Shown one piece after another: positions 6,692 to 30,038 of a stretch of DNA of 64,000 nucleotides (within the stretch, counting starts at the first letter, position 1; every line of letters starts with the position of its first letter). Where the stretch lies: contig NC_083581.1 of the NCBI RefSeq assembly GCF_027579695.1, positions 60,958,200 through 61,022,199 on the forward strand, written 5' to 3'. The position numbers were made by a program, and so were the translations under genes. The DNA comes from Neoarius graeffei (taxonomy: Eukaryota > Chordata > Actinopteri > Siluriformes > Ariidae). Below the pieces are notes generated by a model. The model did no database searches. It was not told where the DNA came from and worked only from the letters and a program-made list of their open reading frames with translations.

Positions 6692-6976
6692 GAGGGTGAT
6701 TTTCTCCCTTCCCTGTTTTAAGAGGTATGCACTTTCAAAAGGCCACACATTCTTCAAATATTGTCAGATCTCCACATGGAAGGCATCATTGGAAAGCTTA
6801 GAAACTGTACTTTCTGAATCTGTCAATAACTCAAAATGCCCCCGGGCAGACGTGTCCCTGGATTCCGTTATCTGACAAACAAACCGCTTGAGTTGAGTCC
6901 ACTTCCGTTTACTCGCATTGACGTTTGGCCTGAGTGCAGGCGTGCGTTCGGGAATTTCCAAAGAAAAACCATGCCT
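6692..6976 (+). other. Former 5' flank of the THAP exon at 29564
   Basis: Runs up to the left L1 target-site copy (6960-6976). Without the L1, this sequence would directly precede the THAP ATG now at 29564. It is not strongly CpG-rich and no promoter element is certain. Confidence 0.5.
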
Positions 6977-7115
6977 GAGTCACGAGACGCGGTTGGTAAA
7001 GACGGCTGCCTGAGCCGAAGTTCCAACTAGCATCATAAAATTAATCCTACAACTAGTGCCTAATAATAACTACAAGAAAGCTTCTAAATGCAAGACACGT
7101 TCGTGGTCATATAGG

Positions 7116-7610
7116 ATGGCAAAACAACTCAAACGCAGGGATATTAAGAAGCATTTGCGGCATCAGAGCACACACCATGATGGCGACGACAACAGCTCAG
7201 AGGCCCCAGAGGCAGCACGTTTTAGCCAGGACATTGCTAATCTCTTTGCTACACTGCAAAAAATATCCAGCGATCTCGCCAGCCTTGACGACATACGCCG
7301 AACCACAACCTCAGTTGAAGGAAACTGTCTTCACTCATCTCACGAGTGGTGGAAGTGGAGAAAAGGGTAGAATGGCTGGAGGACTCCGATAAAAAACTGA
7401 AGGCGTTGGTGGAGGCTAGCCCGCTTGCTACCAAAGCAGAGTTAGAGGATCTCCAGGATAAACTTGAAGATATGGAGAATTGCAACAGACAGAATAATCT
7501 ACGATTTGTAGGCGTCCCAGAAGGTGAAAAGAACTGGGATATGGTGGTGTTTATGCAGAAACTACTGACATCGATCCTTGGCTGGAACGAAATGGCGCAA
7601 CCACCGGAGA
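7116..7610 (+). pseudogene. L1 ORF1 remnant (N-terminal and coiled-coil part)
   Basis: The ATG at 7116 opens MAKQLKRRDIKKHL. A frameshift near 7350 moves the reading to a coiled-coil frame (KRVEWLEDSDKKLKALVEAS...), followed by the RRM start motif NLRFVGVPEGEKNWDM typical of L1/Tx1 ORF1p. The protein stops at PPEI where the Tc1 element begins. The remaining RRM and C-terminal domain are absent on the other side, so about half of ORF1 is deleted. Confidence 0.75.
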
Positions 7611-7612
7611 TA

Positions 7613-9215
7613 CAACCCCGATTCTAAAAAAGTTGGGACAAAGTACAAACTGTAAATAAAAACAGAATGCAATAATTTACAAAACTCAAAAACTGATATT
7701 GTATTCACAATAGAACATAGACAACATATCAAATGTCGAAAGTGAGACATTTTGAAATTTCATGCCAAATATTGGCTCATTTGAAATTTCATGACAGCAA
7801 CACATTTCAAAAAAGTTGGGACAGGGGCAATAAGAGGCTGGAAAAGTTAAAGGTACAAAAAAGGAACAGCTGGAGGACCAAATTGCAACTCATTAGGTCA
7901 ACTGGCAATAGGTCATTAACATGACTGGGTATAAAAAGAGCATCTTGGAGTGGCAGCGGCTCTCAGAAGTAAAGATGGGAAGAGGATCACCAATCCCCCC
8001 AATTCTGCGCCGACAAAGAGTGAAGCAATATCACAAAGGAGTTCGACAGTGTAAAATTGCAAAGAGTTTGAACATATCATCATCTACAGTGCATAATATC
8101 ATCAAAAGATTCAGAGAATCTGGAAGAATCTCTGTGCGTAAGGGTCAAGGCCAGAAAATCATACTGGGTGCCCGTGATCTTCGGGCCCTTAGACGGCACT
8201 GCATCACATACAGGCATGCTTCTGTATTGGAAATCACAAAATGGGCTCAGGAATATTTCCAGAGAACATTATCTGTGAACACAATTCACCGTGCCATCCG
8301 CCGTTGCCAGCTAAAACTCAATTAGTTCAAAGAAGAAGCCGTATCTAAACATGATCCAGAAGCGCAGATGTCTTCTCTGGGCCAAGGCTCATTTAAAATG
8401 GACTGTGGCAAAGTGGAAAACTGTTCTGTGGTCAGACGAATCAAAATTTGAAGTTCTTTACGGAAATCAGGGACGCCGTGTCATTCGGACTAAAGAGGAG
8501 AAGGACGACCCAAGTTGTTATCAGCGCTCAGTTCAGAAGCCTGCATCTCTGATGGTATGGGGTTGCATTAGTGTGTGTGGCATGGGCAGCTTACACATCT
8601 GGAAAGACACCATCAATGCTGAAAGGTATATCCAGGTTCTAGAGCAACATATGCTCCCATCCAGACGACGTCTCTTTCAGGGAAGACCTTGCATTTTCCA
8701 ACATGACAATGCCAAACCACATACTGCATCAATTACAGCATCATGGCTGCGTAGAAGAAGGGTCCGGGTACTGAACTGGCCAGCCTGCAGTCCGGATCTT
8801 TCACCCATAGAAAACATTTGGTGCATCATAAAATGGAAGATACGACAAAAAAGACCCAAGACAGTTGAGCAACTAGAATCCTACATTAGACAAGAATGGG
8901 TTAACATTCCTATCCCTAAACTTGAGCAACTTGTCTCCTCAGTCCCCAGACGTTTACAGACTGTTGTAAAGAGAAAAGGGGATGTCTCACAGTGGTAAAC
9001 ATGGCCTTGTCCCAACTTTTTTGAGATGTGTTGTCATGAAATTTAAAATGACCTAATTTTTCTCTTTAAATGATACATTTTCTCAGTTTAAACATTTGAT
9101 ATGTCGTCTATGTTCTATTCTGAATAAAATATGGAATTTTGAAAATTCCACATCATTGCATTCCGTTTTTATTTACAATCTGTGCTTTGTCCCAACTTTT
9201 TTGGAATCGGGGTTG
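7613..9215 (+). mobile_element. Tc1/mariner transposon, about 1.6 kb
   Basis: Long terminal inverted repeats (about 60 bp, starting CAACCCCGATTCT and ending GAATCGGGGTTG) with TA at 7611-7612 and 9216-9217. It carries a transposase with one frameshift (7921-8998). It sits exactly at the break between L1 ORF1 and ORF2. Confidence 0.92.
7921..8998 (+). pseudogene. Tc1-type transposase, single frameshift
   Basis: The N-terminal part (start at 7921, or more likely the in-frame ATG at 7975, MGRGSPIPP) holds the paired-type helix-turn-helix (KIAKSLNISSSTVHNIIKRF). It ends at a TAG near 8323. A one-base shift restores the frame ([13 protein letters not shown]), which continues to 8998. The DD34E triad is complete: Asp in [10 protein letters not shown], Asp in [10 protein letters not shown], then exactly 34 residues to Glu in SPIENIW. 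The catalytic core is intact, but the frameshift splits it from the DNA-binding half. A diverged relative lies at 57965-59300. Confidence 0.9.
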
Positions 9216-9221
9216 TATTTT

Positions 9222-9949: not shown

Positions 9950-9951
9950 TA

Positions 9952-10480
9952 CACTACCGTTCAAAAGTTTGGGGTCACTTTGAAATGTCCTTATTTTTGA
10001 AAGAAAAGCACTGTTCTTTTCAATGAAGATCACTTTAAACTAATCAGTAATCCACTCTATACATTGCTAATGTGGTAAATGACTATTCTAGCTGCAAATG
10101 TCTGGTTTTTGGTGCAATATCTCCATAGGTGTATAGAGGCCCATTTCCAGCAACTCTCACTCCAGTGTTCTAATGGTACAATGTGTTTGCTCATTGCCTC
10201 AGAAGGCTAATGGATGATTAGAAAACCCTTGTACAATCATGTTAGCACAGCTGAAAACAGTTGAGCTCTTTAGAGAAGCTATAAAACTGACCTTCCTTTG
10301 AGCAGATTGAGTTTCTGGAGCATCACATTTGTGGGGTCGATTAAATGCTCAAAATGGCCAGAAAAATGTCTTGACTATATTTTCTATTCATTTTACAACT
10401 TATGGTGGTAAATAAAAGTGCGACTTTTCATGGAAAACACAAAAATTGTCTGGGTGACCCCAAACTTTTGAACGGTAGTG
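9952..10480. mobile_element. 529-bp Tc1-type MITE with perfect 27-bp inverted ends
   Basis: Positions 9952-9978 (starting CACTACCGTTCAAAAG) are perfectly inverted at 10454-10480, with TA on both sides (9950-9951, 10481-10482). There is no transposase. It lies inside the L1 ORF2 linker. Its right side continues into the snapback at 10481-10606. Confidence 0.93.
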
Positions 10481-10606
10481 TATTCAGTTCAATGAACCTA
10501 CAGCACCCTGTGCAGGGATTGCCTGGGAGGCGCTACTCCCAGGCAATCCCTGCACAGGGTGCTGTAGGTTCATTGAACTGAATACACAACCGTTCAAAAG
10601 TTTGGG
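10481..10606. repeat. Snapback: 49-bp perfect inverted duplication of MITE flank plus partial MITE end
   Basis: 10481-10529 is L1 sequence (encoding EPTAPCAGIAWEA). After the 6-bp spacer GCGCTA it is repeated in inverse orientation at 10536-10584. It is followed at 10585-10606 by 22 bp of the MITE terminus (one mismatch). The L1 frame resumes immediately after as AVLRGYIIQHASYIK. The right half is therefore an inverted copy of the junction between the MITE end and its flank. Confidence 0.9.
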
Positions 10607-10650
10607 CTGTATTGAGAGGCTATATTATCCAACATGCCTCTTATATAAAA

Positions 10651-10951
10651 GAGTATTTAGTGATACCGAGGGAGAGAAAATAGTGCCAAGCGATTTCGAG
10701 GTGTGACTTTTTATTTGGCAACGGTTTTGTGATGCAAATATATCACTCTTTTGAACACATACTGTTTTGAGACGAAAAACGTTTTACTTTCGTGACCCCA
10801 ACAAACTTGCCGGACTACTTTCGTCTGGACCAAAACTGGACAAGAACTGGACTCACAGGATGCTGTCGGGGGTAAGTCAGTGTGTTTGCACGACACTATT
10901 GATGGGGATGCCATACAGATTCATGTCAAAAATCCCGAACTATCCCTTTAA
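10651..10951 (-). mobile_element. Truncated MITE-like repeat ending in TTAA
   Basis: Interrupts the L1 ORF2 linker between HASYIKE and LTQLKYDYNYILSQ. On the minus strand it begins TTAAAGGGATAGTTCGGG, a repeat start recognised from fish genomes. The other side (TATTTAGTGATACCG...) has no matching inverted end, so it is incomplete. Confidence 0.6.
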
Positions 10952-12108: not shown

Positions 12109-12283
12109 GGGCAATTCCATGTAAATGTCAACCTCACCATGCAAAAATAAAGCAACATGTAATACATCAAAACCACTCCCAGAGATCTCACCTAGGCCTG
12201 TATTTTACAGATGTGAATAAGTTGAACCAATTTGTAACCAACCTAATATGTCACTGTCAGTCTTTCTTTCTTATAATGTAAAA

Positions 12284-13579
12284 TAAGGTATTAGGCAGAG
12301 ACCCGTCCACCCGTAAATTTGACGGGTGATTGCCGATTTCAACGGGCAAGTATACACACAGACGGATACTGAAACGGACGATAATGCCGAAAATTTTCGC
12401 ACATGAATACTCCCACATGTCGTCCGATAAATCCAGTTATGTTCCGCCCACACATGGACTGGCCATCGGGAGTAGCGGGAGTTTTCCCGGTGGGCTGGTG
12501 GTTCAGCGTGGGCCGGCGGAGAAAAAAAAAAAAACAGTTGCGCGCTGGCCTTTAATATGATAAGCAATGTTAACAGTTTCTTTAACAAACTGTTAACATT
12601 GCTTATTACAGTTGCGCGCTGGCCTTTAATATGATAAGCAATGTTAACAGTTTGTTAAAGAAACTGTTAACATTGCTTATCATATTAAAGGCCAGCGCGC
12701 AACTGTTTTTTTTTTTTTGTTGTTTTTTTTCTCCGCTGGCCCACACTGAACCACCGGCCCACTGGGAAAACTCCCGCTACTCCCGATGGCCAGTCCGTGT
12801 GTGGTTCCGCCATCATTTACAAATCGTAAGAAACACAATTTAATACGAAAAATACTGAAAACTTGAAATGAAAAATCAGAATATTTCATCGTTTCCGCCA
12901 TTTTGGCCCGCACTGAATCTTGTAACATGCGGACTGAATAAATCGCGAATTCTGATTGGTCGAAAATTGCCAAACACCCTGCGTTGTAGTTTCCTCTTTC
13001 TTGGCGGGAGAACCACATTTTTTTTTGCTGACTCACTCTTCTGGATCAAGATGAATCCCAACAAACGCCCCAAATTGAATGTGACAAAAACTGATTCGTT
13101 TTTCCACAAAAAGACAGAAAAGGTATGTGTGATACATTGATTAACAAGGGGGTTTCATTGGGGTATGGTAAAATAGAATACTGTTGGTTTTTTTTTTTAT
13201 TAAATACTGTAACTAGATCAAAAGATTATATACAATTCATTGTTGTTTTTCTTTTCACTTTTGTTACCAAATCAAACACCATACATACATCTGATACATT
13301 CAGGAGTGAAACTGAAAAAAATACAAAGTAAAAATATGCAATATTTCTGATCAAAAATTACACGCCATTTCACCCTGAAAATGTCCTAGAATGCAGGAAA
13401 TGAAGTCTAAATTTCAAAAATTTTCTGGGGGGGCATGCCCCCAGACCCCCCTAGAGGGACTTCGCGCCTGCAGCGCTCGTCTTCGCACCTGCAGCGCTCG
13501 TCTTCGCACCTGCGGCGCTTATCAGGATTATATAAAATATTATTTTTGACTGGTAAATTTCTTTTTCTGCCTAATACCC
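12284..13579. mobile_element. 1.3-kb DNA element nested in the TTAA element, 10-bp target duplication
   Basis: Flanked by TAATGTAAAA at 12274-12283 and 13580-13589. Its ends are inverted: GGTATTAGGCAGA against TCTGCCTAATACC. It carries a possible first exon (about 13050-13121, MNPNKRPKLNVTKTDSFFHK, then GTATGTG donor) resembling N-termini of hAT/zinc-finger transposases. It also has a GC-rich block near 13430-13450 similar to one at 25370-25390 in another element. The long duplication would fit a MULE-type element, whereas the peptide suggests hAT. Confidence 0.6.
12450..12803. repeat. Long inverted repeat with duplicated hairpin centre
   Basis: The arms carry GACTGGCCATCGGGAGTAGC (left) and GCTACTCCCGATGGCCAGTC (right), then A-rich and T-rich tracts and GTTGCGCGCTGGCC / GGCCAGCGCGCAAC. 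The centre holds two copies of a smaller palindrome (AGCAATGTTAACAGTTT... and inverse). Arms total roughly 150 bp each with small differences. It lies inside the 12284-13579 element. Confidence 0.85.
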
Positions 13580-14332
13580 TAATGTAAAACCCAAGCTAAA
13601 ATCAACTTTGATCATGTACAATTCTATATTATTGCCACAAGCCACAGAAATGTATGCTAAAATCCACAAAACAGCAAAACAATAGCCATCCTAAATATTA
13701 TTTAAGAACTTTGATAGTTTTAGCTGATATTTAGAGAGTTTTTCAAAGGGTTATGGTGGTTAAATTGCTGATTTTCTAAACATATGCCATGTCTATTTCA
13801 GATGCGTCACATCCGTAACGGAATTTCGTCACATCCATAACGCTGACTTTTCCTTCCGAAACTCTGCATGAAATACAAAATATTTTAAACAAAGATTTTT
13901 TAATATTCACCTTGGACCCCTCTATCAAATGGATATCTCCATTTCGACATTAGGTTTACAATTTCACAGAGTTTGATAAAAACGTACAGTCACCCAAGAA
14001 AAGTGATACTTTTTCTGTCACATCCATAACGCATCTTTTATTGGCATTTTCTGGCATGCCCTAGATGTACTATGGGAATTGTTCTTGTTCTATCACTTCT
14101 CCAGTATGGTACAGCCTTAAAATATGCAACACCTGTTTAAATACTGGGAGACAATAAAACATGCACTGGGTCATTTGTTGCCATTTTGAGTTCAAGTGTC
14201 ACGTCCATAATGCTGGAATTGCTCTAAACACCTTTTCGAAAATCTCAGGATATATGGTCAACTGGGATAAATCTGAGGCTCTTCCTTTAACAAAGTATTG
14301 CCCATCCACACTCTTTCAAGCTGGAAGATTTA

Positions 14333-15307
14333 GGCTACATCCACACGACAACGGCAACGAGATGTTATTAAAAAAAATATCGCATCCACATGGGCAATGG
14401 ATCAGTAAAATATCAGGTACATATGGCAACACAACGCTTGCTGAAAACGATGCAATACACATGCCACACCTCTAGGGGCGCTGTAAGACGGTCCCTTCGG
14501 AGACACCAGAACAATAGAAGAAGTAAGGACGCATGCGCATAAACTATTATGCGCGAGACTTCATATTAGCCACAAAGTCAGAAAAATCTGTTCGTAAAAT
14601 TACATTATAATGACCAAATACAATGAAAAGTATTTTTCCAGTCTCACCTGTGAAAGGTAATCCCATGTGATCTCGTTTGGACGGCAAACCTGTTGGTACA
14701 GTTAAACGCAGCATATGAATGAGGCATCTTTATTCTCCGCTTTGACCCATCCAATATGGCAGCAAGGATGACGTATGATTCTACGCGGAAGGCGGCGTCT
14801 TTAATGGTCCGGAATAAATTGAATGCTACACGCTGATGGATTAATTTGTTCTTCTACGCCCTTTTTGAGGAATGTATTGTAGGACTTAAACCAACATCTG
14901 AAGAGGTGAGATCGCTCCTTTTTTTCCCTATTTTTGCTGGCGGGATTGACTCTCACTCTCTCTCTCTCTCACTTTGCACCATTACACAATAAATATTCAC
15001 AGTGAAAATATTTTGTAAGCGTGTTTCATGAACCAAGTTATAGGATTTGTTGACAACTCGCATCGAGTTCGTTACACTTCTACCTGGCGTGAAGCACATG
15101 TGGTTGTGACGTCATCGTAAACAAATCCGTTCTACTCATCCAGACGACTTCGCAACGGCGCCGTTGCCAGATCTTTCCACTCTGGAACCCGTTCTCAAAA
15201 GATTTCGTTTCGGGGCACCCAAAACGCCAGTGCCGTGTGGACGCCAGGCCGAAACGATAAACAATTTTATCGGATTCACCTGAATCCGTTGCCATGTGGA
15301 CAGGGCC
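14333..15307. mobile_element. PIF/Harbinger-type MITE, 975 bp
   Basis: Flanked by TTA at 14330-14332 and 15308-15310. Ends: GGCTACATCCACACG on the left; the reverse of the right end is GGCCCTGTCCACATGG, with CAACGG shared further in. Removing it and one TTA restores the L1 frame (LFQAGRF|RWPKQGLKYLG). No ORF of note. Confidence 0.8.
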
Positions 15308-16190
15308 TTAGATGGCCTAAGCAGGGGCTAAAATATCTTGGTATCCTTTCCCCCCTAAATTAGAAGGTATTATTAAGGGGAACTTTGACCCCTTGATACA
15401 GGGACTGGACATTGATGCGAAACATTGGTCGTCATTGTATCTGTCTTTATGGGGAAAAGTTAATGTCATTAAAATGAACTGTGTCCCCAGGATTAACTAT
15501 CTGCTTCACTCTCTGCCATTAAATATCCCAGACAGTTACTTCAAACGACTCAACAATATATTTAAAGAATTTCTGTGGAATGGGAAACGAGCACGTATGA
15601 ATATGAAAAAACTACAAAAGGCCAGTCAACAGTGGTGGATTAGGACTCCCAGATTTAGTATATTACTATTATGCATTTAATCTCAGGCACTTGGCACATT
15701 GGGCTTTACCTCCAGAGAGAGCCCCCCCATGGTACAGCATAGAGCAGTCTGTGTCAGCCCCCCTCCCTCTCCTCCACTGTCTGTCCACTAAATTATCTAG
15801 ACATAAAAGGGCTCATCCAATCATATCTCACCTTCAAGGTGGATGGAGAAGGATCTCAGGGCTGATAGATTTCGACCCTCGTTTAAACGAAGTTGCTAGT
15901 ATATGGCCAAATCCTAAGTTAAATATTAATTAAAAAAAAAAAGCAGCATTTATCTGGAAGGACTGGGTAGAAAGGGGCATCCTTGTATTAGAAAATTTAT
16001 TCAGTACTAACATATTTAAAACATTTGATGGCCTTAAAGTGCATATTCTGGACCAATTTCTTTTTTTTTTTTTTAATATGAAAGTATGTCCCTTTACACA
16101 CTCATCCAGAAGGGTAATTTTGCACAAGGCCATCTGTCTACAGCAGAAAAACCTAAAATAATAAAACGCATCTGGAAAAATCCCAAGGGA
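15308..16190 (+). pseudogene. L1 ORF2 region after the reverse transcriptase
   Basis: Continues the L1 protein from 14225-14332 across the Harbinger MITE. Motifs include WPKQGLKYLGI, WSSLYLSLWGKVNVIKMNC, PRINYLLHSLPLNIPDSYF and FKEFLWNGKRARMNMKKLQ, then after shifts LRHLAHWALPPERAPPW. This is the conserved post-RT part of L1/Tx1 ORF2. It breaks at about 16190 where a THAP-bearing insert starts. Confidence 0.8.
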
Positions 16191-16216
16191 GTCTGGAGCC
16201 AGATTCGTGACGTTAC

Positions 16217-17343
16217 CTGCAGAAGCGCCAGCAGGCTGCGAGAGCTTTGCACGGTTTCAGTGCACAGTAGGGCTGGGTATCACCAGATACCTCACGATAC
16301 GATACTATGGCGATATTTTGCCCACGATAACGATATCATCACGGTACAGCGATTCTGCGATAATCGATATATTGCAAGAAATTTCAACCACATCACGATA
16401 TCTGTGTCACTGAAGAAAATCAGAATTTATTGACCACTGTAAAATTACATTTCACATACATAACTACACACTCTTGCCAGACATATATTTGTCTCTATTC
16501 TAGTGCTGGCAAAACCAAGAGTTGCTTCACTACAACATACAGAAAATTCCCATTTCTGTGCTAGTATTCTCAACTTTTCTGTAAGCATAGACACATCAGT
16601 GCTGCTTAACAAGCAGAATCAAATTGTTTTATGAAAACTTAAAACTTGCACTGCAGACTGCACATGCATTTCAGTGCTAACACTGATATCCATTTGTTCT
16701 TTGTAAACTTGAGAACATAGACCTGAGAACATTTAACTTGTGCTTATTTTGCAGGAACAACACACTGTCTGAAACACATTGAAAAGTGCAGTGGGCATCT
16801 TAATTGGAGCATCTTAATTTAATTGGAGCGAAACAGGTTTTGCAAAGTGCATTCTCTTTGTCCGGCTCACTGTTTTTTTTCTCCTTTCCTTTGGAATCCA
16901 AAGTGCCTCCAAACATCTGCCTTAAAGTTCGGCGGCATCTCTAGGTTTATGTTAGCAGCCATGCTTGCCTGTTTTTTTTTCCTCACTGCAACCGCCGGGG
17001 AAAAAAAGAGAAGACGAAGAGTGCCTTGCAGTGAGGTACCGGCACAGCGACACCTCGCGGAGCGGAGGTGCGGAAGTCGTACTGGATTTACAACCCGTCT
17101 GAAACATGATTTTATTATTTGAAAAAATATCGATATTCAAATTTTGAGTATCGATATTGAATCGGAAGACAAAGTATCGCGATATATCGCCGTATCAATA
17201 TTTTTGCACACCCTTAGTGCACAGCCTGTGTAGACCAAGCGCTCCCATTTCTCTCTCATTGTCCGGTCTTTTGGAAAACGATGAGTACTAATCCCATCAA
17301 GATTGGTGTTGCTACACCCTCCTACGATACATCTGTTAACCAT
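16217..17343 (-). pseudogene. THAP-domain first exon (minus strand), split by a hAT MITE
   Basis: The minus-strand ATG at 17341-17343 opens MVNRCIVGGCSNTNLDGI, then STHRFPKDRTMREKWERLV: the first two THAP cysteines and the following conserved Pro and Trp. A hAT MITE (16268-17216) interrupts it after YTGCA. Beyond the MITE the frame continues to a GTAACG donor at 16216-16212, so this is an exon of a transposon-borne THAP gene inserted in the L1. It differs from the relic at 1199 and the exon at 29564. The ends of the inserted element (about 16190 and 17645) are not resolved. Confidence 0.65.
16268..17216. mobile_element. hAT MITE, 949 bp, 8-bp target duplication
   Basis: Flanked by GTGCACAG at 16260-16267 and 17217-17224. 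Starts TAGGGCTGGGTATC and ends GCACACCCTTA. Sub-terminal CGATA/TATCG-rich repeats lie on both sides. There is no transposase frame. Confidence 0.92.
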
Positions 17344-17645
17344 TTTAATAATTACGCGATAACGTTGAAGAAATTTGCAGAAAACCACCAGGTCATTTTC
17401 TCATAAACAAATCAGCGCTGATATAGGATTCAGAAGGAGGCGTCCCGCACGCAACGTCACGAAAATCAATGTTTGCCGGGAAATCCAAATGCCAAGTTTT
17501 TTTCAGAGGCGGACCAATTCGCCTCAAATGGCTTGATTTCAACTGAATTTTTCTGGTATTGCGCAAGGTTAAAAGAAAATTGCACAAAATGCAAAATGTG
17601 ACAGATATTTGACCAAAGTTTAATATAAAATAGGAGAATTACATT

Positions 17646-18172
17646 GATCTTGCTCCTGAATTTACCCGTGATATGCACTTTAAACAAGAATACAATCTAC
17701 CCAAAACTCAGTTCTGGAGATATCTTCAATTGCGCCATGCACTACAGGGGATTTATGGGTTGAGTTTATACCCCCCAAAACCAGCAGATAAGTTAGACAA
17801 AATCCTCCAAGTATTGGGTAAAGGTCATGAAGCAGCTAAATATCAAAGGATGCTGATGGAATGTGAAGGGGAGATAGGGATCTCGGCCCTGAGACTTTCC
17901 TGGGAAAGAGACTTGGGGGTATCATATGATAAACAGGAATGGGCTACGGTTTGTGGGAATTCTCGAACAATGTCAAGGGACTTGAGGGTTAGGCTTATTC
18001 AATTTAAGATTCTGCACCGATTCTATTGGACACCAAGTAGGCTCTTCAGACTTGGGTTAAAAGATTCAGATACTTGTTGGAAATGTTGTGTGGAAGAAGG
18101 TACAATGATACGTGTTGTGGTCATGTCCTAAGATTAATCAATACTGGATGAAGATTCACGGTTACATAAGGA
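17646..18172 (+). pseudogene. L1 ORF2 C-terminal region with Cys motif
   Basis: Resumes the L1 protein after the THAP-bearing insert: NLPKTQFWRYLQLRHALQ, ISALRLSWERDLGVSY, RVRLIQFKILHRFYWTPSRL and DTCWKCCVEEGTM. A one-base loss near 18105 breaks the following LWSCPKINQYW motif. The Cys-rich end is typical of L1/Tx1 ORF2. It is then split by the 9-kb hAT at 18173. Confidence 0.82.
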
Positions 18173-18306
18173 CAGGGGTTCTCAAACTTCTTTGCTCTGG
18201 GGCCCAGTAATGTTAGGCCTTGGTGCTGCAAGGCCCTGCATAGGCCTATGCCTCTGTGCGCCCCCCCACACATCATGTGCGCCTCTATAGCTAGATAGAT
18301 GCATAC

Positions 18307-18307
<1 letters not shown>

Positions 18308-18341: not shown

Positions 18342-19988
18342 CTATTATTTATTTTGTTGTTCTTTTGTTAGTAGTACTTGTTACAAGTAGCAGGCTTATA
18401 CCAGCATAACAATATTTTGGCTAAATAAGACCTAACAGGCAGAATTGTAGAAAATTGCCAAATGACCAGTAACTGTCCAAAGATATGTCATTATAATTAT
18501 AATTATTATTATTAGTCCTAGTATTATTATTATTATTATTGCTGCTTAGACCTAAACTATTATTAAACAATGGAAACTAACAGAAGTGCTTTGGCTTTGA
18601 GATTGTCAAATTACATAAATATACTGATATGTAGGCCCAATAATTTGACTATTATTATTATTATTATTATTATTAACCTATTATTACCATTTGTGTAAGA
18701 ACCATTAAACCAAGATTTTTTTTTTTACTTTTGTGTTTGAGATTTTTTTTTTAAACTACACCTTTGAACTTGAAGCACTGCCAAACAGTGCCTCAATAAC
18801 ATACACACACTTATAAAAAGGTCTACCAGAAACATGGGACCTCAAACCGAGAAACCTAAAGACCCACTGCAGCCCTAATACTGACTGATTACACAGTCTC
18901 AGTATGAAGAAGGGAGAACTGAACGTAGGCTACGTGCTGACTTTTAACCTCAAATGACAGGCCCAGTCAGCCACAGAGATTTGGTAAAAGAAAAGTCAGC
19001 ATTCTAATGCGAAGGATGTGCCTGCTTTCTCGCCACTAACAGGTCGAAACGAGGAAGACAGGGTGACAAGGCCACTCGGAGCGTGTTTTCTGAGTCGAGC
19101 CTGTTTCGGTATTTTGTCTCTGTGGCTGTCAAATGTGAAAATGCGGTCTCGCAGAGGTATGTTGAATGGAAAGGCATCAGTGTTTTCACTGCCATCTCAC
19201 TCAGCTGGGGATATTCATCGCAGCATGACAGCCAGAATTCAGACAGAGAAAGTCGACCAAATCTCGACTGCAGACCAGCATCGCACGAAAGCTCCAGAAG
19301 TTTATCCTGCACCACAGGTGGCAGAACACTCGTTTCTGGGTTGGTGAACGGATCTCTTACCCATTGCTTTTCCGTGAGATGGGATTTTGAGGGGAAGTAT
19401 GAATCAAAATGACGCAGTGTTTCGGTAAGGTGTTGCGTGATCGCTGCCGGCACCTGCCCCAAATCCACACCTTCATCAGCCAGAGACAACAGACAGCCGA
19501 ACATGTCAAACACACCTCTATTAACTCTGTTGGTCCAGACTGAGAGCTTCTTTTTGAAAGCCATGATTATCATTGGCTTGAAAAATGTCACACGCTTGGC
19601 CTTGGATCGACAGGTTTAGCATATTGAAATGGTCCAGGATGTCAGAAAGATAAGCTACCTTTATAAGCCAAGACTGATCTCGCAGGTGATCGGCAAGATT
19701 GGACCGTTTATTTGTCAAGAATGCCTCAACCTCATGCCTCAACTCGTACACTGTGTTCACCACTTTACCCCGTGACAGCCAACGAACCTCAGAGTGCAAG
19801 AGCAGATGAACATGATCTGCACCCATCTCATCACACACAGCTGTAAATAGACGGGAATTTGTCGGATTGGCCTTAATGAAGTTCACTATTTTGACCACTT
19901 GATTTAAAACTTCATGAAGCTCTGTGGACAGGTGTTTAGAGGTAAGTACCTCTCGATGAATAACACAGTGCGTTGCCTGCACTGATGG

Positions 19989-22900
19989 TAGTGCTGTGTA
20001 CCGGTATGCCGAACCGGTACTGGACTTGTAAAGTTTCGGTTCAAGTCCGGTTAAAACCGGAACGTCGGGAACCGGTACTTGGACTTGCAAAAAAACTAGC
20101 ACTTACGTATATTCTCCCTTTTGTTCTAAGCCATCTAAAACCTTCCATAGATCGAGAAATTTGTGCTGAGAAAAGATGAAAAACATCGTGTCGGTTTCTG
20201 ATATGGCGGCCATTACTGAACTCACGGAGTCTCACAAACTGTCGCAACTGCTCGTAAGATCTGTGTGACGTCAAGGGAAGCTAGCGATGTGATTGGCTTA
20301 GACATAGCGTGGACAGCGTGGGCTGCTGTGGTCGCCATATTGGATATTTGGTAGTGTAGCTAACTCCTTTGTTTGGTCTACGGCGTCATGGGTCATGTAA
20401 ACACAATGCCGCAGTGCTTTAAATCCAGTAAGGTGTGGGAGCATGTGACGAAACTGCTGCTAGATACTGCGAAGTGTAACCTGTGCGGGAACGTGATCAA
20501 GTGCGCTGGGGGAACATCGAACATAGCGAGGCACTTGAGGCGAAACCACAAAATAGAAACGACTCCACATGCGGCCTCAGCCACATTGGCGGCGATCTTT
20601 GGCGAGCAAAATAACAACGATCGAGGTAAGCTGAACAATACTTTTTGGAGGATTTTCAGTTCAGGAAATAGGCTTGTAAAAAAATTGCCATTCTTAGCAT
20701 TATAGCAAGATATAGTAGCATCGGGACTAGCTGACTAGGGTGTTTATTCAGCGTCATCTTTTCTTATGCGGGGAGCAAAACAATGTACCTAATGCAAGAC
20801 AAAGACACTGTCAGCATGGCTAATTTCTAGTAGTCACAGTCCGAAACACACGTAGGTCGTATTATCAGTTGATTCTTAAATACTACATTTTTTTTTAATC
20901 ATGGCAAGTTTGCAACGGTAGGTTCATCATGTATATTATGAAATCTATGATAGTCTTTTTTATTTTGTATGATCACCTGGCAAGATAACTAATAAACAAG
21001 TAATAATATATTAAAGATTGCTTATTTCCTTTATTATTTACACAGTAACCCTGAGAAAGTAGGACTATGCTTTGGTTCAATTGGTTAAATCAATTTTATT
21101 TTGCTTTCAGCCCAGGCCCAACCTCGACGTGCCCCACAGCCCCCACCTGTGTCCCACACTGCCACTACTGGGACACTTGCCTTACCATCACTAGATCCAT
21201 TACAGTCAACGTCAAGTTCCACTTCCACTGTGGCCAGCACTACTGTAACGCCTTTTACCTTGGCAAAGCTTACCAAGATGCCTCCAGAGAAACAGCATAA
21301 GATTGTGTCATTACATCGTAAAATCACTGCGCCCATTCTCCATCGTGGAAGACCCATAATTTCGGGCAGTCCTAAGCGAGCTGAACCCATCCTACAAAGT
21401 CCCAAGTCGTGGAGAAGTATCAGAGAGGTTCATCCCCAAGATGTACGAAGCAGCCCTTCTCAATCTCAAGACTGAGCTGCAAGAGGTGGAGTACGTGGCC
21501 TTGACTGGAGATGGTTGGACATCTAGGGTGGCTGACTGTTACTTGACACTGACTGTCCACTACATGAAAGACTGGGAGATGAAAGTAAGAGTCCTACAAA
21601 CGTTGAAGGCAGAAGTTTCCCAGACAGGGGACAACATCGCGGCCGAGATTGGACAGTGTTTGGAAGACTTCAACCTCAAGGGCAAAGTAGAGGTAATGAC
21701 CACTGACAATGCAAAAGCCATGGCCAATGCTACTACCAGTGCATGGATTCCACTGTCTCTAGGATGTTTTGCCCACACTCGATCTTTCCACACAGAAGGC
21801 CATGAATGTGCCCACTGTAGGCACAATGCTAGCTATCATCAGACCTGCCATCACATTTTTCCGCAACTCATATCTTGGTAAGGTTGTGCTAAAGGAGAAA
21901 CAGAAAGCGCTGGACAGACCATTTCACAACTTAATCCTGGATTGTAAGACAGGCTGGAATAGCTCTTACATGATGGTCGAGAGATTCGTAGAGTAATACC
22001 CAGCAGTAGTGGCAGCATCCCTCAATGAGAGACTTAAGAAGAAAGACAGCTTTAAGAAGCTGCAACGATGCACAGACAAGGACATTGAGAGGATGGAACA
22101 GTTCCTGGAGGTGATGAAGCTTCCTTACAAGATAACTGTGGACATGTCATCTGAGAAACGCCCAACATCAGGGCAGGTGCTCCCCATGATCGAAAAACTG
22201 GAATTCCACCTGGCTGAAAAAGATGATGAGAAGTTCACCAAAGACATCAAAGCAGCCATCAGGAATGATCTAGCGACCCGGTACCACCAGGATGATGCAA
22301 GGAGAGAATTCCTTCAAGAGGCTACCGCCCTAGACCCCAGGTTCAAGGGTTCCCCTGTCGTGACCGTGGATGTGTGGGATTGGATAACAAACAAAATCGA
22401 AGTTGCCTGGGCCCAAGTACAGGTGAAGAAGGAAGCAGAGGAGGAGGGAGCTATGCCACAGTTGCCACTACAGGTCGAACAGGAATTACAGGATGGTCTT
22501 TGTGACACTGACGCACCTTCTCCTGCTAAGAAGGCAAAGCTGACAGCCATGGAGGAAATATTCCAAGATTAAGACGATCTCATGGTGACCCACGTTGAGC
22601 CACCCCTGCCTGTCCAACTACGTATTCAACAGGAGATCCTGAAGTTCAAATGCATGCCAAAGCTGAAATCAACAGATGATGTTATTGCTTTCTGGGGGGG
22701 AAATCTGATGAGCTACCATTGCTCAGTACATTCGCAAGGAAGTACCTGACTGTTCCTGGTACAAGCGTGCCAAGTGAGCATGTCTTTAGCACTGCTGGTG
22801 ATATTGTGTCTGCCGAAAGAGCAACACTTGACCCAGACAATGTCAATATGCTGTTGTTCTTGAACAAGAACACAAAGACTTGTACTCTTGCATATTGAGT

Positions 22901-23533
22901 CTCGACAGTCCACAGTCTCCTCACTGTCCGAGTGACAGACGATAGATGCTTAAGTTAACTACGTATGACATTTGTATCAAAATTGTATGTATGTATGTAC
23001 ATCATTATGTAGTATGTACACATGTAGAGTTGTAGAAAAGACATGGTGTACAGACAGTACAGTACACTCTAGACTGTACAGTCACTACAGTGTATAGTAG
23101 TGTAATGTGTATAGTCTACTCTACACTCTACCTTTCAGCAAAGTTTTAGGGATTTAGGCTCAGTCAGCTCAGGGACTGCTTGGTTACTTTAGTTTGGTAA
23201 ATGAAATAAATATTTGTACTTTGTAGTAGTTCACGTCATAAGTCATTTGTAGACTAAGTGGCAAAAAGTGTATGTAACATTTTTTTACATTTGTACTTTG
23301 TAGAGAAATGTAGGCACAAGTTGGAAGTCTTGGAACACAATAAACCGGACAAGTTTGAATTTGAGTTGATTTCAAATTTTCAATTGATAATTACTTAGCT
23401 TACAATAAGTTCACTTTAGTTACTCACACAAGCCATGGGTTCAGGTCCGGACTTCTAGGTCCGGACCTGAACCTGAACCTCTGGACTTGAGTCCGGACCT
23501 GAACCTGAATGTGAGTTTAGGTACGCAGCACTA
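19989..23533 (+). mobile_element. Ac-like hAT transposon, 3.5 kb, 8-bp target duplication
   Basis: Ends are inverted: TAGTGCTGTGTACC on the left, GGTACGCAGCACTA on the right. The left target copy is ACTGATGG (19981-19988). The right copy (from 23534) was split by a second element at 23541, but joining across that element gives ACTGATGG again. Sub-terminal repeats of CCGGAC/GTCCGG type (20048-20085, 23440-23510) are likely transposase-binding sites. It carries a transposase gene on its plus strand. Confidence 0.92.
20388..22898 (+). pseudogene. Ac-like (ZBED1-type) hAT transposase, two exons, decayed
   Basis: Exon 1 (20388-20625) encodes a BED zinc finger: WEHVTKLLLDTAKCNLCGN, then GGTSNIARHLRRNH, with a GTAAG donor. 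Exon 2 starts at 21111 after TTGCTTTCAG. The core reads MPPEKQHKI, LTGDGWTSRVADCYLTLTVH (catalytic Asp), VEVMTTDNAKAMANA, LGCFAHT and TGWNSSYMMVERF. The C-terminal dimerisation part is YLTVPGTSVPSEHVFSTAGD then IVSAERATLDPDNVNMLLFL, ending at 22896-22898. Defects: frameshift near 21310, TAA at about 21355, frameshift near 21778, TAA at 21994, stop at 22570, frameshift near 22700. Confidence 0.9.
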
Positions 23534-23540
23534 ACTGATG

Positions 23541-25542
23541 CAGGGCTCGACATTAGCACTTGCCCGATGGCCCAGCGGTATTTTTTTTACGTTTTTCGGG
23601 CCAGTTCGGGCCACTAAATTTGGCCAAACAGTGGCCCGGGCGGGCCAGTACATTTTCGATACAAATTAACAAATTTTATTACTCATACTTTACCCAGAAT
23701 TGTGAAGAAATTGTTCGTAAAATGCACCTTTTCGATACGAGGTCTGTCTTTGTTTTCGTCACGCTCCGCTCCGCGGCAGGAGTGTGTCGTCTTCGTGCAT
23801 CTTCGGAGATGTTCGGTGCTGTTTGGAGGCGTCATTTTGGCGGGAAAATAGCATCTTGTAGATGAAGACGGTTGCGGCAAGGAGACCATCAGAATGGTGA
23901 AATTCAAATAGAAATATGTTCAAACTCCACGCTCCCCAACCTGGCCAAAGGCCAAGTAAACAGTTTAAATACGATCGTGCATATATTAACTAATCGGGTG
24001 TTAACGAACGGCTTCATTTTGAACTCGGCAGCCAATCAGAGCGCGCGACGTCACGCTCTGTTTACAACTCGCCAAATATGGCGCCGAATCGTAAAACAGC
24101 ATTTCAACACGCGCGCTTTAGCTTCAGATGGTGTAAAATCGTTCAGACTTTGTATATTAATATCAAAATTTCAGGATACACTGCCAAGAAATATGGCTAC
24201 ACGTGTATCAACTTTTAGTGATTAAAGAATGAAGTATAAATGTTGGTTGCTATGACTGAAATAGAAGAACAGATAAAATAATGTGGTAAATTAGATCTGA
24301 TCCCATATATTTAAATTATTCAAATATCCAAAGATGATGAAATGTATAAAAATAGCCAAACTAGGTCTACATTAGTTCATTACAACAAATAATAACTATT
24401 CTGACCCTCTCTGGTACAACCAGACCATACTAAACCCAGGATACCCCCAGTTGCTTGGGTATCTGCTGTTGCCATGGCAACGGTTTATGCAAATGAGCTG
24501 AACTTGCAAAAAATTTACTACTAGTTCCCCCAAGGGCATATCCTGAAAATTTGGTGTTTATATCTTGTCTTACTAAAAAAATACATAATTTCACCCCTTT
24601 TTGGCTCACCTGAGCATACCTGTTAATTAGCTAATTAACAAGTAATTAGGGTTATAAATCACCCCCGAGCAGGTAAGACTTTGCAAAAATCTCACTAGAT
24701 TATTCCCCAAAGTCCACCCTTTCAGGAAATGTATGGTTTGTCAATGATTCTCATGATATTTTATTAATTAAGAAAAAGAACTTCTTCATGGGCAATAAAA
24801 ATGCCCATTTAAATCCAGCATGATGAGGGTTAGTATGCCACCCTCACCTTTCATCCAGACTTGGGACTGGCCTGTGTGTGTCTTGTGGCTATTATATAAA
24901 GGTGTATTTAAAAAGTTCATTGTACCTCTATTTCTATAAGAATATCTACAGTGGTGAGAATTCAATATCTACAATGTTGAGAATATATGAGCCAAAGTTG
25001 AAACCATGACAAAAAAGGAAAATATGTCTATATCACACAGGGTGGGCTACAGGCAAAGCTTATTCTATAAACAAGTTAGTTGCATGGTGAGGCAAAACTT
25101 AGCTTATTCTAAAACTTATACAAACAATTGTTAATGTAAAACAGTAACCAACAGCATGTGTTAAATGAACAGAGAACAAGAACAAAGGAAATTTTTAAAT
25201 GTAACTAAGAAATTGATAGAACAAGAAATGCAAACAATAAAATATCAATGTGAACAAACAATAAAGATATAATAATGTTAACAAAATATGAATAATCTTA
25301 TTTTCATTAATTTCACCTTAAAATGCACCAGAATGCACGAATATGAATTGAAAAATCAAAATTTTATGGGGGAGGGCCCCCGGACCCCCCTCTTTGTGCA
25401 AGCACCTGTGGTGCTTGCAGCAGCTGCCGTGGTTCGGGTACCGCGCGCGTTTGGGCCACCACATTTTCCATTTGGGCCAGTAACTTTTCAATTCCACTGG
25501 CCCAATGGGCCACCAGTGGTAAATGCTTAATGTCTAGGCCTG
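23541..25542. mobile_element. 2-kb hAT-like element inserted in the target repeat of the Ac-like hAT
   Basis: Left end CAGGGCTCGACATTAGC; right end reversed CAGGCCTAGACATTAAGC. Both ends continue with GGGCCA-rich repeats. TGATG is duplicated at 23536-23540 and 25543-25547, a 5-bp target, as in hAT5-type elements. A GC-rich block (25370-25390) resembles one in the element at 12284. No transposase is recognisable; the interior is AT-rich. Confidence 0.75.
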
Positions 25543-25839
25543 TGATGGTGAAATGGCTTTTACCCGAGCAACAACTCCGTTGTGCCTGCCAGTCATAGCC
25601 GCTGCCCCATCTGTGCAGACACCAACGCAACGCCCCCATATTGCGACACAACCATGCCCAGAGATGTACCCATCAAGCATACGGAATATTTCTCCAGCGG
25701 TTGTGGTCCCTGGAAACACCTTACAAAACAAAAAATCCTCATGAAACCCGCCCTCATGACCATATCTGATGTAGACCAGAAGCATAGCCAAGTTAGAGAG
25801 ATCCATGGTCTCATCCAACTGAATGGCAAACCAGTCATG

Positions 25840-26351
25840 CCCCTTTTCCACCAAAGCAGTTCCAGGGCTGGTTCGGGGCCAGTGCTTAGTTTGGAACCGG
25901 GTTTTCTGTTTCCACTGACAAAGAACTGGCTCTGGGGCCAGAAAAACTGGTTCCAGGCTAGCACCAGCTCTTTGCTGGGCCAGAGGAAAGAACCACTTAC
26001 GTCAGCGGGGGGCGGAGTTGTTAAGACCAACAACAATAGCAAGACCACAAAAGATTGCCATTTTTAAGCGACAAGAAGCAGCAGCTGTACAAACGCAAAG
26101 TCATCCATTATTATTGTTGCTGTTGCTGCTGCTTCTTCCGTGTTGTTTTTGCGTCGATATTCGCGCCAAGGTTTATGCAAACGTAGCGACGTAACTGACG
26201 TATACAGCGACGTAATGACGCATCTCCCCTTAGCACCTCGAGCTATGGAAAAGCAAACTGGTTCTCAGCTGGTTCGCAAGTTGAACGAGTTGTGAACTAG
26301 CACCAGCACTGGCCCCAAACCAGCCCTGGAACTGATTTGGTGGAAAAGGGG
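25840..26351. mobile_element. 512-bp MITE family B, copy 1
   Basis: Inverted ends CCCCTTTTCCACCAAA and TTTGGTGGAAAAGGGG, continuing into GCAGTTCCAGGGCTGGTTCG-type sequence. It interrupts the ZBED5-like frame between ERAKSSY and DWFAIQL, with an apparent 2-3 bp target. A second copy is at 42425-42937. Confidence 0.85.
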
Positions 26352-27262
26352 TATACGATGACTTCGCCCTTTCTAAAATTTGCATTTCGATGTCTGCCGC
26401 CATATCGCCAATTCGACAACAGACCGTGCCATTTGACAGAGGAATCTCTCTTACTTTGGCTGCAGTAGCCAGACCCAACACCTCACTACAAGCAGTAACA
26501 ATCGAAGGCATAATTAGCTTCTTCCCAATTGTGAAGGGTGCCTGACATTTGGAAATGTGGTGTGAAATCATGTATGATGCCTTTGTTAGCTTTTCATTCT
26601 CGGTCAAATTACTTTCAACACTTTAGTTTGGGTGGCCAATTCATCACATTTTCTTCTAAAAAAATCCTCCGATTTATCCTTGAGATGCGAATGTTTAGTT
26701 TCCAAATGCTGGCGTAATTTGGATGGCTTCATAGCTTCGTTGCTTAGCATGGTTTAGCAGATAACACAGATTGGTTTTGGGGGACAACTATCACTTGAAA
26801 TAAAGCCGAATTGTATGTATGAAGGGTCATAATTGCGAGTGAATGGGCGATATTTTTTTGCCTCTGGCTCATGTTGTGTATCTGCACTGTCAGATGGGCG
26901 CTTTCCAAAGAAAGAGTCAAGAGTAGCTTGCTTTGAACATGCCATGATATTGCTCTCATAAAGCGTGTGCGCACGAATGACTGGACTTGGGACAGAATGA
27001 ATGAATAAGTGCAAGTGTGCAACCTTGCGCGGGCAGGAACGCTTAACATTCTAGAATGGGGGGGGGCGGGACTTACGCTACGTGGCACACAGTGACAAAA
27101 GCACTGACAGCAGAGCCAGCCAATCGCTCTTCTACATAATCTGATTGACAGTCACCAGTAGTTTGAAATTATAATACTGACTACTAGTGCAGAGGCAGGC
27201 TTGCGGACAGACAGTAATCTTCTCACGGACCGGTACCGGTCCATGGCCCATAGACTGAGAAA

Positions 27263-27449
27263 CACCATATTAGGAGACCGTAAAGTGCTGTCTGCTTTTC
27301 CTCAGCCACTAAAATCCTGGACACAAACTGCTATCATGATTGGACGACAGATTATTCTCAGGAACTGGAAGAAACATGGAGAACCTCCTTTCCAGGACTG
27401 GATGACTGAATTAGGCAAAGTAGCTGCATATGAAAAGGATGTCATATAG
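27263..27449 (+). pseudogene. C-terminal end of L1 ORF2
   Basis: Reads LGDRKVLSAFPQPLKSWTQT, AIMIGRQIILRNWKKHGEPP, FQDWMTELGKVAAYEKDVI and a stop at 27447. This is the conserved L1/Tx1 tail (ILLNWK...W...L...EK). It proves that the LINE continues 9 kb beyond its previous segment. The 3' UTR follows, split by the element at 27561. Confidence 0.85.
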
Positions 27450-27676
27450 GATGCAGGACAGAACAGAAAAGTTCTTTCTGAAGTGGGGCATGTACCTTGA
27501 CACTATACCGTATCTGTTCCAATGGAAAAAATAAGTGGATGCTCAGGAATTGTTATGAATAGACCCCTTTCACATGACGTCACCACGCCGCGAGATTTTG
27601 TTAGGCGCCATATTGGAAGACCAAGTACATGCACTCACAATATAAAACAAAGTACGAGCGAGAGTAAAGTGACACG

Positions 27677-28947
27677 ATGGATGATAATTCGGGTTACGTG
27701 AGTACATTACCAGTTGCAGAAAGGGCACGGTATGTGGAGAAACTGGCTGTGATTGATGGGTTTGACCCATATGATAAGACTCAGAAAAAATTATGTGAAT
27801 CCAAGCACACAGTTTAACGCAAAAGTTCGTTTATATCCCGACCTTGTCAGCTGTCAGATTTATGTTAATGGACCCGGTAAGCTGGTAAATAATTTTTTTT
27901 CTTTACCAAATTCTAACAGAAAACGAGAGCGCCCGAAAGGGAAAACCGAGCCGAGCCGCCTCACGGCTGTAATGCAAATTGCTTTCCTCCTCGGTATACA
28001 AGTGCGCTTCCATGGCAGGGAAAAAGAAACTACATTCTGCCGCCTATGTAGTCCCCTATTTAAACAAATAGGAGTCATTCAGGATTCAGCCATGTTTTTG
28101 CTCCGTGCTTTTACTCGACCAAAGTTATACAGTATTATGAGCTTTAAATTGCATAAATAAAACCATTTGGTAAAACTTTGAAGAAGAGATTGTACTGGTT
28201 TAAAGTTTTTACCTAACGTTTTCATGTCGACTCCAATTAATACACTAGTAGAATCGATGACTAGTTTAGTAGGCCAAAACTTTTTTCAATTTTTGACTGT
28301 ACCAGCCTGAAAAAACTTGCGACAGTCAAATGGAAAAAAAGCAAGCTGGTCATGTTGTACTGGACTAATCTATGACTGATGAGTATAGTAAGTGATACTA
28401 GTACTGATACAATAAAACAGACGACTGTAATCTGGTAGGCAGCACGATTTATATTATTTCTCCGTGTCAGATACATAAGGAGGACCGCACACCAACAGGG
28501 GTGATAGCGTTCCGGCGCCGCGCCGGATTTCCGGCGTACCGTGGCTGGGGAAAAAAAAAAAAAATCTAGTTCGCTCATTGTCCTGTGTCATTCTGAGATG
28601 CGCAGATAGACAGTAAAGGGAATTCGCATGATATGGAACTAGTGGGAAAAAAGTGCCGTCACGGCACGAATCCGGCACGGCGCCGGAACGCTATCACCCC
28701 TGCACCAATTCTGCCATCTGTTTGCTACCCAGACATTGTAAACTATTTGTTGTTTACACCCAGTGCCTACACTGCTGATGACTTGAAAGCCTACAAAGGG
28801 CTACAGGCTTACAATTATGTTGTTAGTGGCTTGGTTCGTGATATTACAGCTGTTATTAAGAATAACCTACACATAGTTATTATTATTAAATTGTATAAGT
28901 CTGGGAGGCTTGCTCCTCATACAGTTATCAACTTGAGGCCAATTTAG
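27677..28947 (+). pseudogene. ISL2EU-type accessory (YqaJ/SWIM family) protein, N-terminal exons
   Basis: Exon 1 (27677-27817) reads MDDNSGYVSTLPVAERARYV, then EKLAVIDGFDPYD, and ends in a stop through decay. Exon 2 starts at 28471 after TCCGTGTCAG; a 207-bp MITE splits it at 28496. It continues LPSVCYPDIVNYLLF, TPSAYTADDLKAYKGLQAYN and YVVSGLVRDI to a stop at 28945. The YPDIVNYL and AYKGLQAYN motifs resemble the start of the YqaJ-nuclease proteins that accompany THAP transposases in ISL2EU elements. No nuclease domain remains here. Confidence 0.6.
28496..28702. mobile_element. 207-bp palindromic hAT-type MITE
   Basis: Ends CAGGGGTGATAGCGTTCCGG and CCGGAACGCTATCACCCCTG are exact inverses. 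Inside are GGCGCCG repeats. CACCAA lies directly on both sides (28490-28495, 28703-28708). It splits the second YqaJ-type exon. Confidence 0.9.
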
Positions 28948-29563
28948 CATGTTTTAAATCTGAATTTCTTGTGTTTGCTTACCTCAAAGTGTCCGCAGAT
29001 CATGCACAGACTTATCCATTATATCCACAGTTTTTTGCCAAGTCTCACACAGGTTTCTTTCAAGTCTACTGTTGGGCCAATAAATCATAAATAAAACAGC
29101 TCAGATTTGTTTGTTTAAGTCGTTTGCCACTCCACTTTATTCTCGTGGGTTCACATACCGCTGCCGTTATCACGAGTTTGTTGGTCTTCCAAAATGGCGC
29201 AGGGTCTGTTTACTTCCGGTTTCGGGTGACACCAGTGAAAGGGGTCTATAGGGTGGAGATGTGATGATTATGGGATTATTGTTTATTTACTACTTGTCTT
29301 GTTTAAGTTTTTGTTATTACTATACTCTTTTTCAGGTTTTATGTTATTTATTATGACATGATAGTTCTCTTTCTGTGAATATATTTACAAGTTTGCTTGA
29401 GCTATGCATAGCCACTTTATTGTTAAGATGACCCCTCGATGTTACAGGTGGGTGGAAGAAAATGTTCTGTGTTGGAATAGAATGCATTCTGTATTCTCAG
29501 TGATGCTACTGATTTGTATATTATAAAATTTAAAAAACGCAAGTCATAAAAAAAAGAAAAACC

Positions 29564-30038
29564 ATGCCTTATTGCTGTGCAGTGAACTGTAACAACGGGA
29601 CCGGTTCAGGAAGAAGTTTTTACCTTTTTCCGAGAGAGGAGAAGAGGTGGAGAGAGTGGATTGGCTTTTTCCAAAAGAGAAGAGGCAGAGCGAGTGGGTT
29701 GGCTTTTTCCGAAAGAGGAGAAGAGGCGGAGCGAGTGGGTTGGCTTTTTCCGAAAGAGGAGAAGAGGCAGAGAGAGTGGATTGGCTTTTTCCAAAAGAGA
29801 AGAGGCAGAGTGAGTGGTTTGGCTTTTTCCGAAAGAGAAGAGGCGGAGCAAGCGGGTTGGCTTTTTCCGGAAGAGGAGACGAGGCAGAGAGAGTGGATTG
29901 TGCGCGTGAAGCCAGAGGGTTGGCTTTTTCCGAAAGAGGAGACGAGGCGGAGAGAGTGGATTGTGCACGTGAAACAAAATCAAGCAGTCAAAGAAGAAAC
30001 GGAGCAGCAACGCTCAAGCAAAAAGGAGAAGATTGGAG
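29564..30038 (+). CDS. THAP-domain first exon with internal repeat expansion
   Basis: The ATG at 29564 opens MPYCCAVNCNNGTGSGRSFY, then LFPREEKRWREWI: the first THAP cysteines, FP motif and Trp. In place of the usual continuation, the FP-to-WI part is repeated about eight times in-frame or in shifted frames (29631-29970). It then runs on as WIVHVKQNQAVKEETEQQR to a GTAAAC donor at 30039. The exon is open for 158 codons despite the expansion. The last THAP Cys and His would be in a later exon, which I cannot identify. The L1 target duplication covers its start codon. It may be a host-like or transposon-borne THAP gene; the expanded copy is probably not functional. Confidence 0.55.
29631..29970. 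repeat. Coding minisatellite, about 45-51 bp unit, about eight copies
   Basis: Units of the form GGCTTTTTCCGAAAGAGGAG plus AAGAGGCGGAGCGAGTGG, varying in length and by point changes. The unit corresponds to the THAP segment LFPKEEKRQREWI. The last two units include GTGCGCGTGAAG/GTGCACGTGAAA, probably the ancestral downstream sequence. Confidence 0.85.

Follow-up and report, generated by a model that had tools for sequence, protein, structure and literature searches.

From our reading of a 64-kb stretch of DNA (the window, C13:60958200-61022199), we conclude, with a probability of about 0.96, that an L1 copy lies in a THAP-bearing repeat and was later entered by DNA elements that were themselves entered, with losses of sequence. 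The L1 copy occupies window positions 6977-29552, and its approximately 4.54 kb of L1 sequence are spread across 22.6 kb. The region from 6841 to 30500 was read (Table 1). In addition, seven related L1 loci of 9.9 kb (L010-L016) from the searched genome (2.34 Gb) were read and aligned singly to the window, rather than through a consensus.

Table 1. Components of the nest in order of window position
Feature	Position	Strand	Basis or remark
THAP repeat, left part	6876..6976	+	includes the left 17-bp duplication copy (6960-6976)
L1 5' end and N-terminal part of putative ORF1	6977..7612	+	sister alignment starts at 6977 (L016) and 7144 (L012)
Insert A, Tc1/mariner-type	7613..9215	+	TA/TA; long inverted repeats; bridges the 912-bp L1 deletion
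L1 ORF2 endonuclease segment	9218..9951	+	human ORF2p match; sister alignment
Insert B, MITE with Tc1-type ends	9952..10480	+	TA/TA; 24/24 TIR bases match
L1 segment IQFNEPTAPCAGIAWEAL	10483..10535	+	sister alignment
71-nt inverted copy of 10459-10529	10536..10606	-	1 mismatch; spacer GCGCTA
Short L1 segment starting AVLRGYIIQHASYIK	10607..10658	+	sister alignment
Insert X, right part of a putatively young TTAA-ended element	10659..10946	+	left part missing
L1 reverse transcriptase segment	10947..12108	+	RVT_1 4.4e-33; human ORF2p; sister alignment
Insert C, TTAA-type	12109..14224	+	right TTAA mutated to TAAA; sister empty sites
Insert C.1, inside C	12284..13581	+	8-bp duplication ATGTAAAA; empty in the C copy of L011 (1/1)
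Insert C.1a, inside C.1, palindromic	12449..12803	+	8-bp duplication GTTCCGCC; TIR+TSD above all 200 controls
L1 segment between C and D	14229..14332	+	ORF2p and sister alignment
Insert D, Harbinger-like MITE	14333..15307	+	TTA/TTA; sister empty sites
L1 thumb/post-RT segment	15311..16037	+	ORF2p and sister alignment
Insert E, TTAA element	16038..17679	+	frame rejoins; sister empty sites
Insert E.1, inside E, hAT-type MITE	16268..17216	+	8-bp GTGCACAG; empty in 7/7 E copies
L1 ORF2 C-terminal segment	17684..18167	+	ORF2p and sister alignment
Insert F, hAT element, transposase gene on minus strand	18173..27267	-	Dimer_Tnp_hAT PF05699 2.5e-6
Insert F.1, hAT element	19989..23533	+	ACTGATGG; zf-BED 2.6e-11; empty in 6/6 F copies
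Insert F.2	23541..25542		TGATG/TGATG; in right target copy of F.1
Insert F.3, MITE	25839..26352		borders known to within about 3 nt
L1 ORF2 C-terminal end and 3' UTR	27268..27561	+	ORF2p and sister alignment
Insert G, contains G.1	27562..29246		TA-flanked; 12-bp TIR; empty in 3/3 sister copies
Insert G.1, inside G	28496..28702		6-bp CACCAA; score above all 200 controls
L1 3' UTR end and A-rich tail	29249..29552	+	sister alignment
THAP repeat, right part	29553..30829	+	29553-29569 is the right copy; THAP start; internal minisatellite

A single L1 copy inside a dispersed repeat

The L1 copy is bounded by an exact 17-bp duplication, AAAGAAAAACCATGCCT (6960-6976 and 29553-29569), which occurs at only these two places when both strands of the window are searched. 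The longest word shared by chance between the two 300-bp end regions was 14 bp in 3000 order-1 resamplings. Such a target-site duplication together with an A-rich 3' end is characteristic of L1, and the top PDB match of both the endonuclease (5.4e-15) and the reverse transcriptase (4.1e-45) was LINE-1 ORF2p. Along the window the ORF2 pieces matched human L1 ORF2p chains at rising residues: 31-148, 91-206, 338-494, 522-723, 778-877, 1071-1142 and 1128-1225. The two overlaps in this series (31-148 with 91-206, and 1071-1142 with 1128-1225) stem from queries that have window DNA in common. In the queries for residues 31-148 and 1128-1225 the length of the X-filler was chosen by hand, so that the missing length cannot be measured from them; the same holds for the query over the short L1 segments beside B. 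The missing lengths were measured against sister copies instead.

ORF1 gave no Pfam match, and its PDB search returned one unrelated weak match only; we call this putative reading frame ORF1 from its position and from the sister copies. Its remainder sits in 912 bp that are lost here, and the frame is open in L012. An ORF1 probe found six other genomic matches, comprising four at 91-93%, one at 82% and a 47-base piece at 94%. We take the element to be an L1/Tx1-like non-LTR retrotransposon of fish type, its fish origin and Tx1 likeness being our assumption. With fish L1/Tx1-like elements it has in common a putative ORF1, endonuclease, reverse transcriptase, C-terminal domain, A-rich tail and target duplication; unlike them it is broken by inserts and most likely dead, that is, inactive and without function now, since its reading frames are interrupted at many places. 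Scanning a viral contig collection with the L1 reverse transcriptase yielded no relative, and the scan of a genome contig collection a single match, 23% identical, in a bacterial bin.

A search with the reverse transcriptase piece found, besides its own locus, at least 40 matches (40 scored of 104 candidates); those listed include five long ones at 90-97% and two at 78-82% identity, the others being below 72% or short. L010-L014, the five close copies, follow the window L1 collinearly, most pieces being 88-97% identical. The remaining two, L015 and L016, stand further off, at 76-87%. The comparison drew on L016 at the L1 5' end, at the B site and across the A interval; in L015, the parts that align left of C and right of D are separated by an unaligned piece of 101 nt, where about 104 bp of L1 are expected. 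The sequence-only reading of the window had placed ORF1, endonuclease, reverse transcriptase and C-terminal pieces of one L1 in order between the 17-bp duplication, and the residue order and sister collinearity bear this out. It had also named overlapping L1 segments or mixed subfamilies as what would speak against a single copy; no segments overlap, and identity to L012 is 88-96% across every L1 piece. This comparison, of the sort which that reading had put forward but with sister copies in place of a consensus, confirms a single L1 copy enlarged by nested insertions.

The host of this L1 is new relative to that first reading. The right target copy leads into a THAP domain (3.8e-9), and a 77-bp probe of this repeat occurs at no fewer than 40 places at 99-100% identity (40 scored of 1598 candidates). 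Since the probe is multicopy, the THAP unit is a dispersed repeat, and the interpretation of the THAP start as a single-copy gene severed from its promoter was rejected. Eight THAP-repeat loci were returned, one of which is the window itself; the seven others, which lack the L1, all connect window position 6976 with 29553 or 29554, overlapping by 16-17 bp, and the exact joined bases of the empty L1 site were read in L051. As these copies carry the empty site, the L1 is itself nested, and the THAP repeat is its dispersed host. At the right end of the repeat, both the window copy and the five loci read there run to TTTAA, and the sequences diverge beyond; on the left the window copy departs from the other copies at 6876. 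Within 29564-30085 the repeat has an internal minisatellite of alternating 38/41-bp spacing, whose alignment differs between copies. Further on, window positions 31500-64000 hold dense, mutually matching repeats with a tandem array at approximately 37741-38478. Literature listings on LINE insertions into a THAP start codon had nothing relevant, and those on 5-bp and TTAA targets gave one unrelated paper.

That two or more distinct L1 copies lie side by side and mimic one is extremely improbable. Identity to the sister copies does vary by piece (about 88-97% in most) and L1 sequence is absent at three gaps, as such an arrangement would allow, but no part overlaps another, all parts follow one order and one orientation, a single 17-bp duplication surrounds them, and the THAP repeat is uninterrupted at that point in all seven copies read.

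Insert borders and empty sites

For 14 inserts, X being left out, terminal inverted repeats and target duplications were scored together (TIR+TSD) against 200 resamplings each. The scores of A, B, C.1a, F.1, F.2, F.3 and G.1 exceeded all 200 controls; that of E.1 was reached by 2/200 and that of D by 7/200. Scores were not distinct from controls for C (179/200), E (37/200), F (50/200) and G (49/200), and those of C, F and F.1 are lenient, as inexact duplications were counted. C.1 scored 24 at its corrected borders, equal to the maximum among its 200 controls. Being weak by score, C, E, G and C.1 rest on empty sites, and F rests on its family. Among the inner inserts, C.1a and G.1 rest on their own ends and duplications; for the others empty sites were read. 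Superfamily names derived from target size and ends are our assumption, except where there is a Pfam match.

Insert A has the TA target, inverted ends and DDE transposase of Tc1/mariner elements; the transposase is split over two frames (DDE_3 1.3e-13, with a paired-type HTH). Members of the same Tc1 family also lie elsewhere in sister L1 loci (L011 5687-7271, 93%; L013 8112-9721, 96%). The B site is empty in all three close copies that cover both of its sides (L011, L012, L014).

Four of the five close copies (L010, L011, L012, L013) have an exact TTAA empty site for C; L014 also lacks C, but about 53 bp are gone around the site. Removal of the insert and one target copy rejoins the L1 frame as NTINTF at C and as GRFRWP at D, as had been read from the window, and the empty sites give the same joints. 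D has an empty TTA site in 5/5 close copies and hence the 3-bp duplication of PIF/Harbinger, a name which we assign presumptively from target and ends. A query spanning C and D, read through one frameshift, aligned continuously to L1 ORF2p (157 query versus 160 chain residues). The L011 locus holds a C copy without C.1, whose two parts are 95.5% and 98.1% identical to the window. C.1 had been considered a Harbinger element with a TAA target; this was rejected in favour of the 8-bp ATGTAAAA, the score at the first borders being reached by 200/200 controls. Likewise, a 6-bp duplication for C.1a was rejected in favour of 8 bp. The middle of C.1a (12534-12706) contains a 73-bp direct repeat and 49-bp arms with a 1-nt spacer, possibly another fold-back event.

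E is a second TTAA element, at which the L1 frame rejoins as GLKQEY; its site is empty in the 4/4 L1 copies that cover it, and six E copies read elsewhere have TTAA at both ends. The TTAA target of Kolobok/piggyBac type was found at C and E, and at the right end only of X and of the THAP repeat. We presume that THAP with TTAA points to Kolobok; C, E, X and the THAP repeat may belong to either superfamily.

The hAT transposase frame of F runs on across F.1 plus F.2 (ISPSVQATHC) and across F.3. Six F copies were fetched, and the ends of L036 were left out of the duplication count; the 8-bp duplication was exact in L033, L034, L035 and L037 and 7/8 in L038. F therefore has both the 8-bp duplication and the transposase of hAT, with the left duplication of the window copy cut by a deletion. 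Because the family makes 8-bp duplications, the right copy here is TATTAGGA, with the deletion entering the left copy; the pair CATAAGGA/TATTAGGA, which agrees in 6/8 positions, was rejected since sister L1 copies show the deletion into the left copy. The empty site of F.1 plus F.2 reads CTGCACTGATGGTGAAA in 6/6 F copies. The F.3 site, too, is empty in 6/6, reading CCAGTCAGATGA without an AT duplication target, so that the AT target proposed for F.3 was rejected; the frame is still kept. A second copy of the F.3 family lies at window positions 42423-42942. Among the targets assigned from the window alone (TA, TTAA, TTA, AT and 8 bp), corrections concern the AT of F.3 and the right TTAA of C, which is mutated.

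L1 sequence lost or rearranged at the inserts

The expectation of a collinear alignment with gaps exactly at the element borders held for collinearity and failed for border exactness at A, X and F, since part of the L1 is missing there. The view that every gap is a clean element plus target is likewise not supported, one gap moreover being an inverted duplication. At X, about 80 bp of L1 were lost along with the left part of the element (versus L011 and L012). At least 39 other places carry X at 99-100% identity (40 scored of 943 candidates). All seven loci that were read extend beyond it on the left, with two or more kinds of left extension, and stop at TTTAA on the right; the family is very young. 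At the left flank of F the loss is 46 bases (about 50) relative to L011, L012 and L013. At B, the window lacks five L1 bases present in sister copies, which fits with the L1 frame being unrestored there.

The TAs on either side of A are 912 bp apart in L012 and both are native there; the interval contains the rest of ORF1, the spacer and the ORF2 start. We infer that two Tc1 copies, or else aberrant transposition, caused this loss, and we somewhat favour a transposon-bridged deletion, in which two Tc1 elements 912 bp apart recombined or one end used a nearby TA. The single Tc1 with clean TA ends, and the joined L1 flanks that happen to share one frame, would also suit a source L1 that already had the deletion, with the Tc1 later inserting precisely at the joint. 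This is unlikely: as the TAs of L012 are native at both distant sites, the joint must have fallen on a common TA that the Tc1 then hit, and the 912 nt are held by both close copies read there (L012, and L062, in which they are interrupted) and in parts by the distant L016. The 71-nt inverted copy was derived from 22 nt of the B end and the 49 nt after it, and is younger than B, whose end it includes. It is absent from 5/5 close sister copies, which have 4 nt there (AAGG in three, one-base variants in two). The palindrome 10459-10606 was rejected as a transposon, being local B end and L1 inverted. A near-perfect palindrome with a 6-nt spacer could suggest a separate foldback element, but this is very improbable given that its sequence is local B end and local L1 and that it replaces 4 nt, with no inserted unit in any of the five close copies. 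Rather, it looks like the product of a fold-back template switch. The available part of a study of short-range template switching (PMC7954356) describes a short inverted local copy, a small spacer and few lost bases, as found here; the present event differs from what is described there in spanning a MITE/L1 joint and in that the ancestral sequence of this very locus lies outside the comparison.

Order of events and relation to known nests

Insertion by a target-primed route is usual for L1, and the 17-bp duplication and A-rich end suggest that the L1 entered a THAP-bearing repeat in this way, across its start codon; the right side of that repeat ends at TTAA. The L1 would then have been entered by no fewer than eight DNA elements (A, B, X, C, D, E, F, G), which in turn received C.1, C.1a, E.1, F.1, F.2, F.3 and G.1. 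Target duplication left frame and flanks rejoinable, as can be read at C, D and E; the other changes, visible against sister copies, are losses of 912 bp at A, about 80 bp at X, about 50 bp at F and 5 bp at B, as well as the 71-nt inverted copy. At its deepest, the nest has five levels (THAP repeat, L1, C, C.1, C.1a).

The sequence-only reading had taken many events to be orderable here, which goes too far: nesting orders parent and child only, plus two further cases. The order read from nesting is the THAP repeat, the L1, then A/B/X/C/D/E/F/G; within these, C precedes C.1 and C.1 precedes C.1a, E precedes E.1, F precedes F.1/F.2/F.3, and G precedes G.1. The two extra cases are the precedence of B over the inverted copy and of F.1 over F.2; in the latter, F.1 has ACTGATGG as its left target copy, which the other order would explain only with a mutation. 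The order is thus partial, and nesting does not rank A, B, X, C, D, E, F and G against one another. Among the matches listed, identity to family copies is 99-100% for X, 95.5-98% for C, 96-97% for E and, within the probe, 93-95% for F; these values point to a young X but are no clock.

The arrangement had also been called rare, which is not supported: in the available parts of the respective papers, ordering nested elements is established by REANNOTATE (PMC2672092), TinT (PMC3014933) and interruption analysis (PMC2517846), the first two being methods for precisely this. The present analysis resembles these in its parent-child order and defragmented host. It is unlike what those parts describe in that several steps were checked at base level against empty sister sites and non-transposition losses were set apart. 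No report of this locus was found among the papers listed by the literature searches, which is weak evidence. The locus is a well-resolved further example of nested elements and no new kind.

It is a clear but ordinary illustration of mobile elements piling up inside one another, and a clean teaching case, five deep, in which most steps can be compared with empty sites of the same genome and host-element sequence was lost at three insert borders. It also cautions that perfect TA flanks are no proof that the two flanks once adjoined. If the transposon-bridged deletion at A is true, nested clusters would lose host-element sequence via their inserts, and the gaps of defragmented elements would concentrate at the borders of inserts, as seen here for A, X and F.
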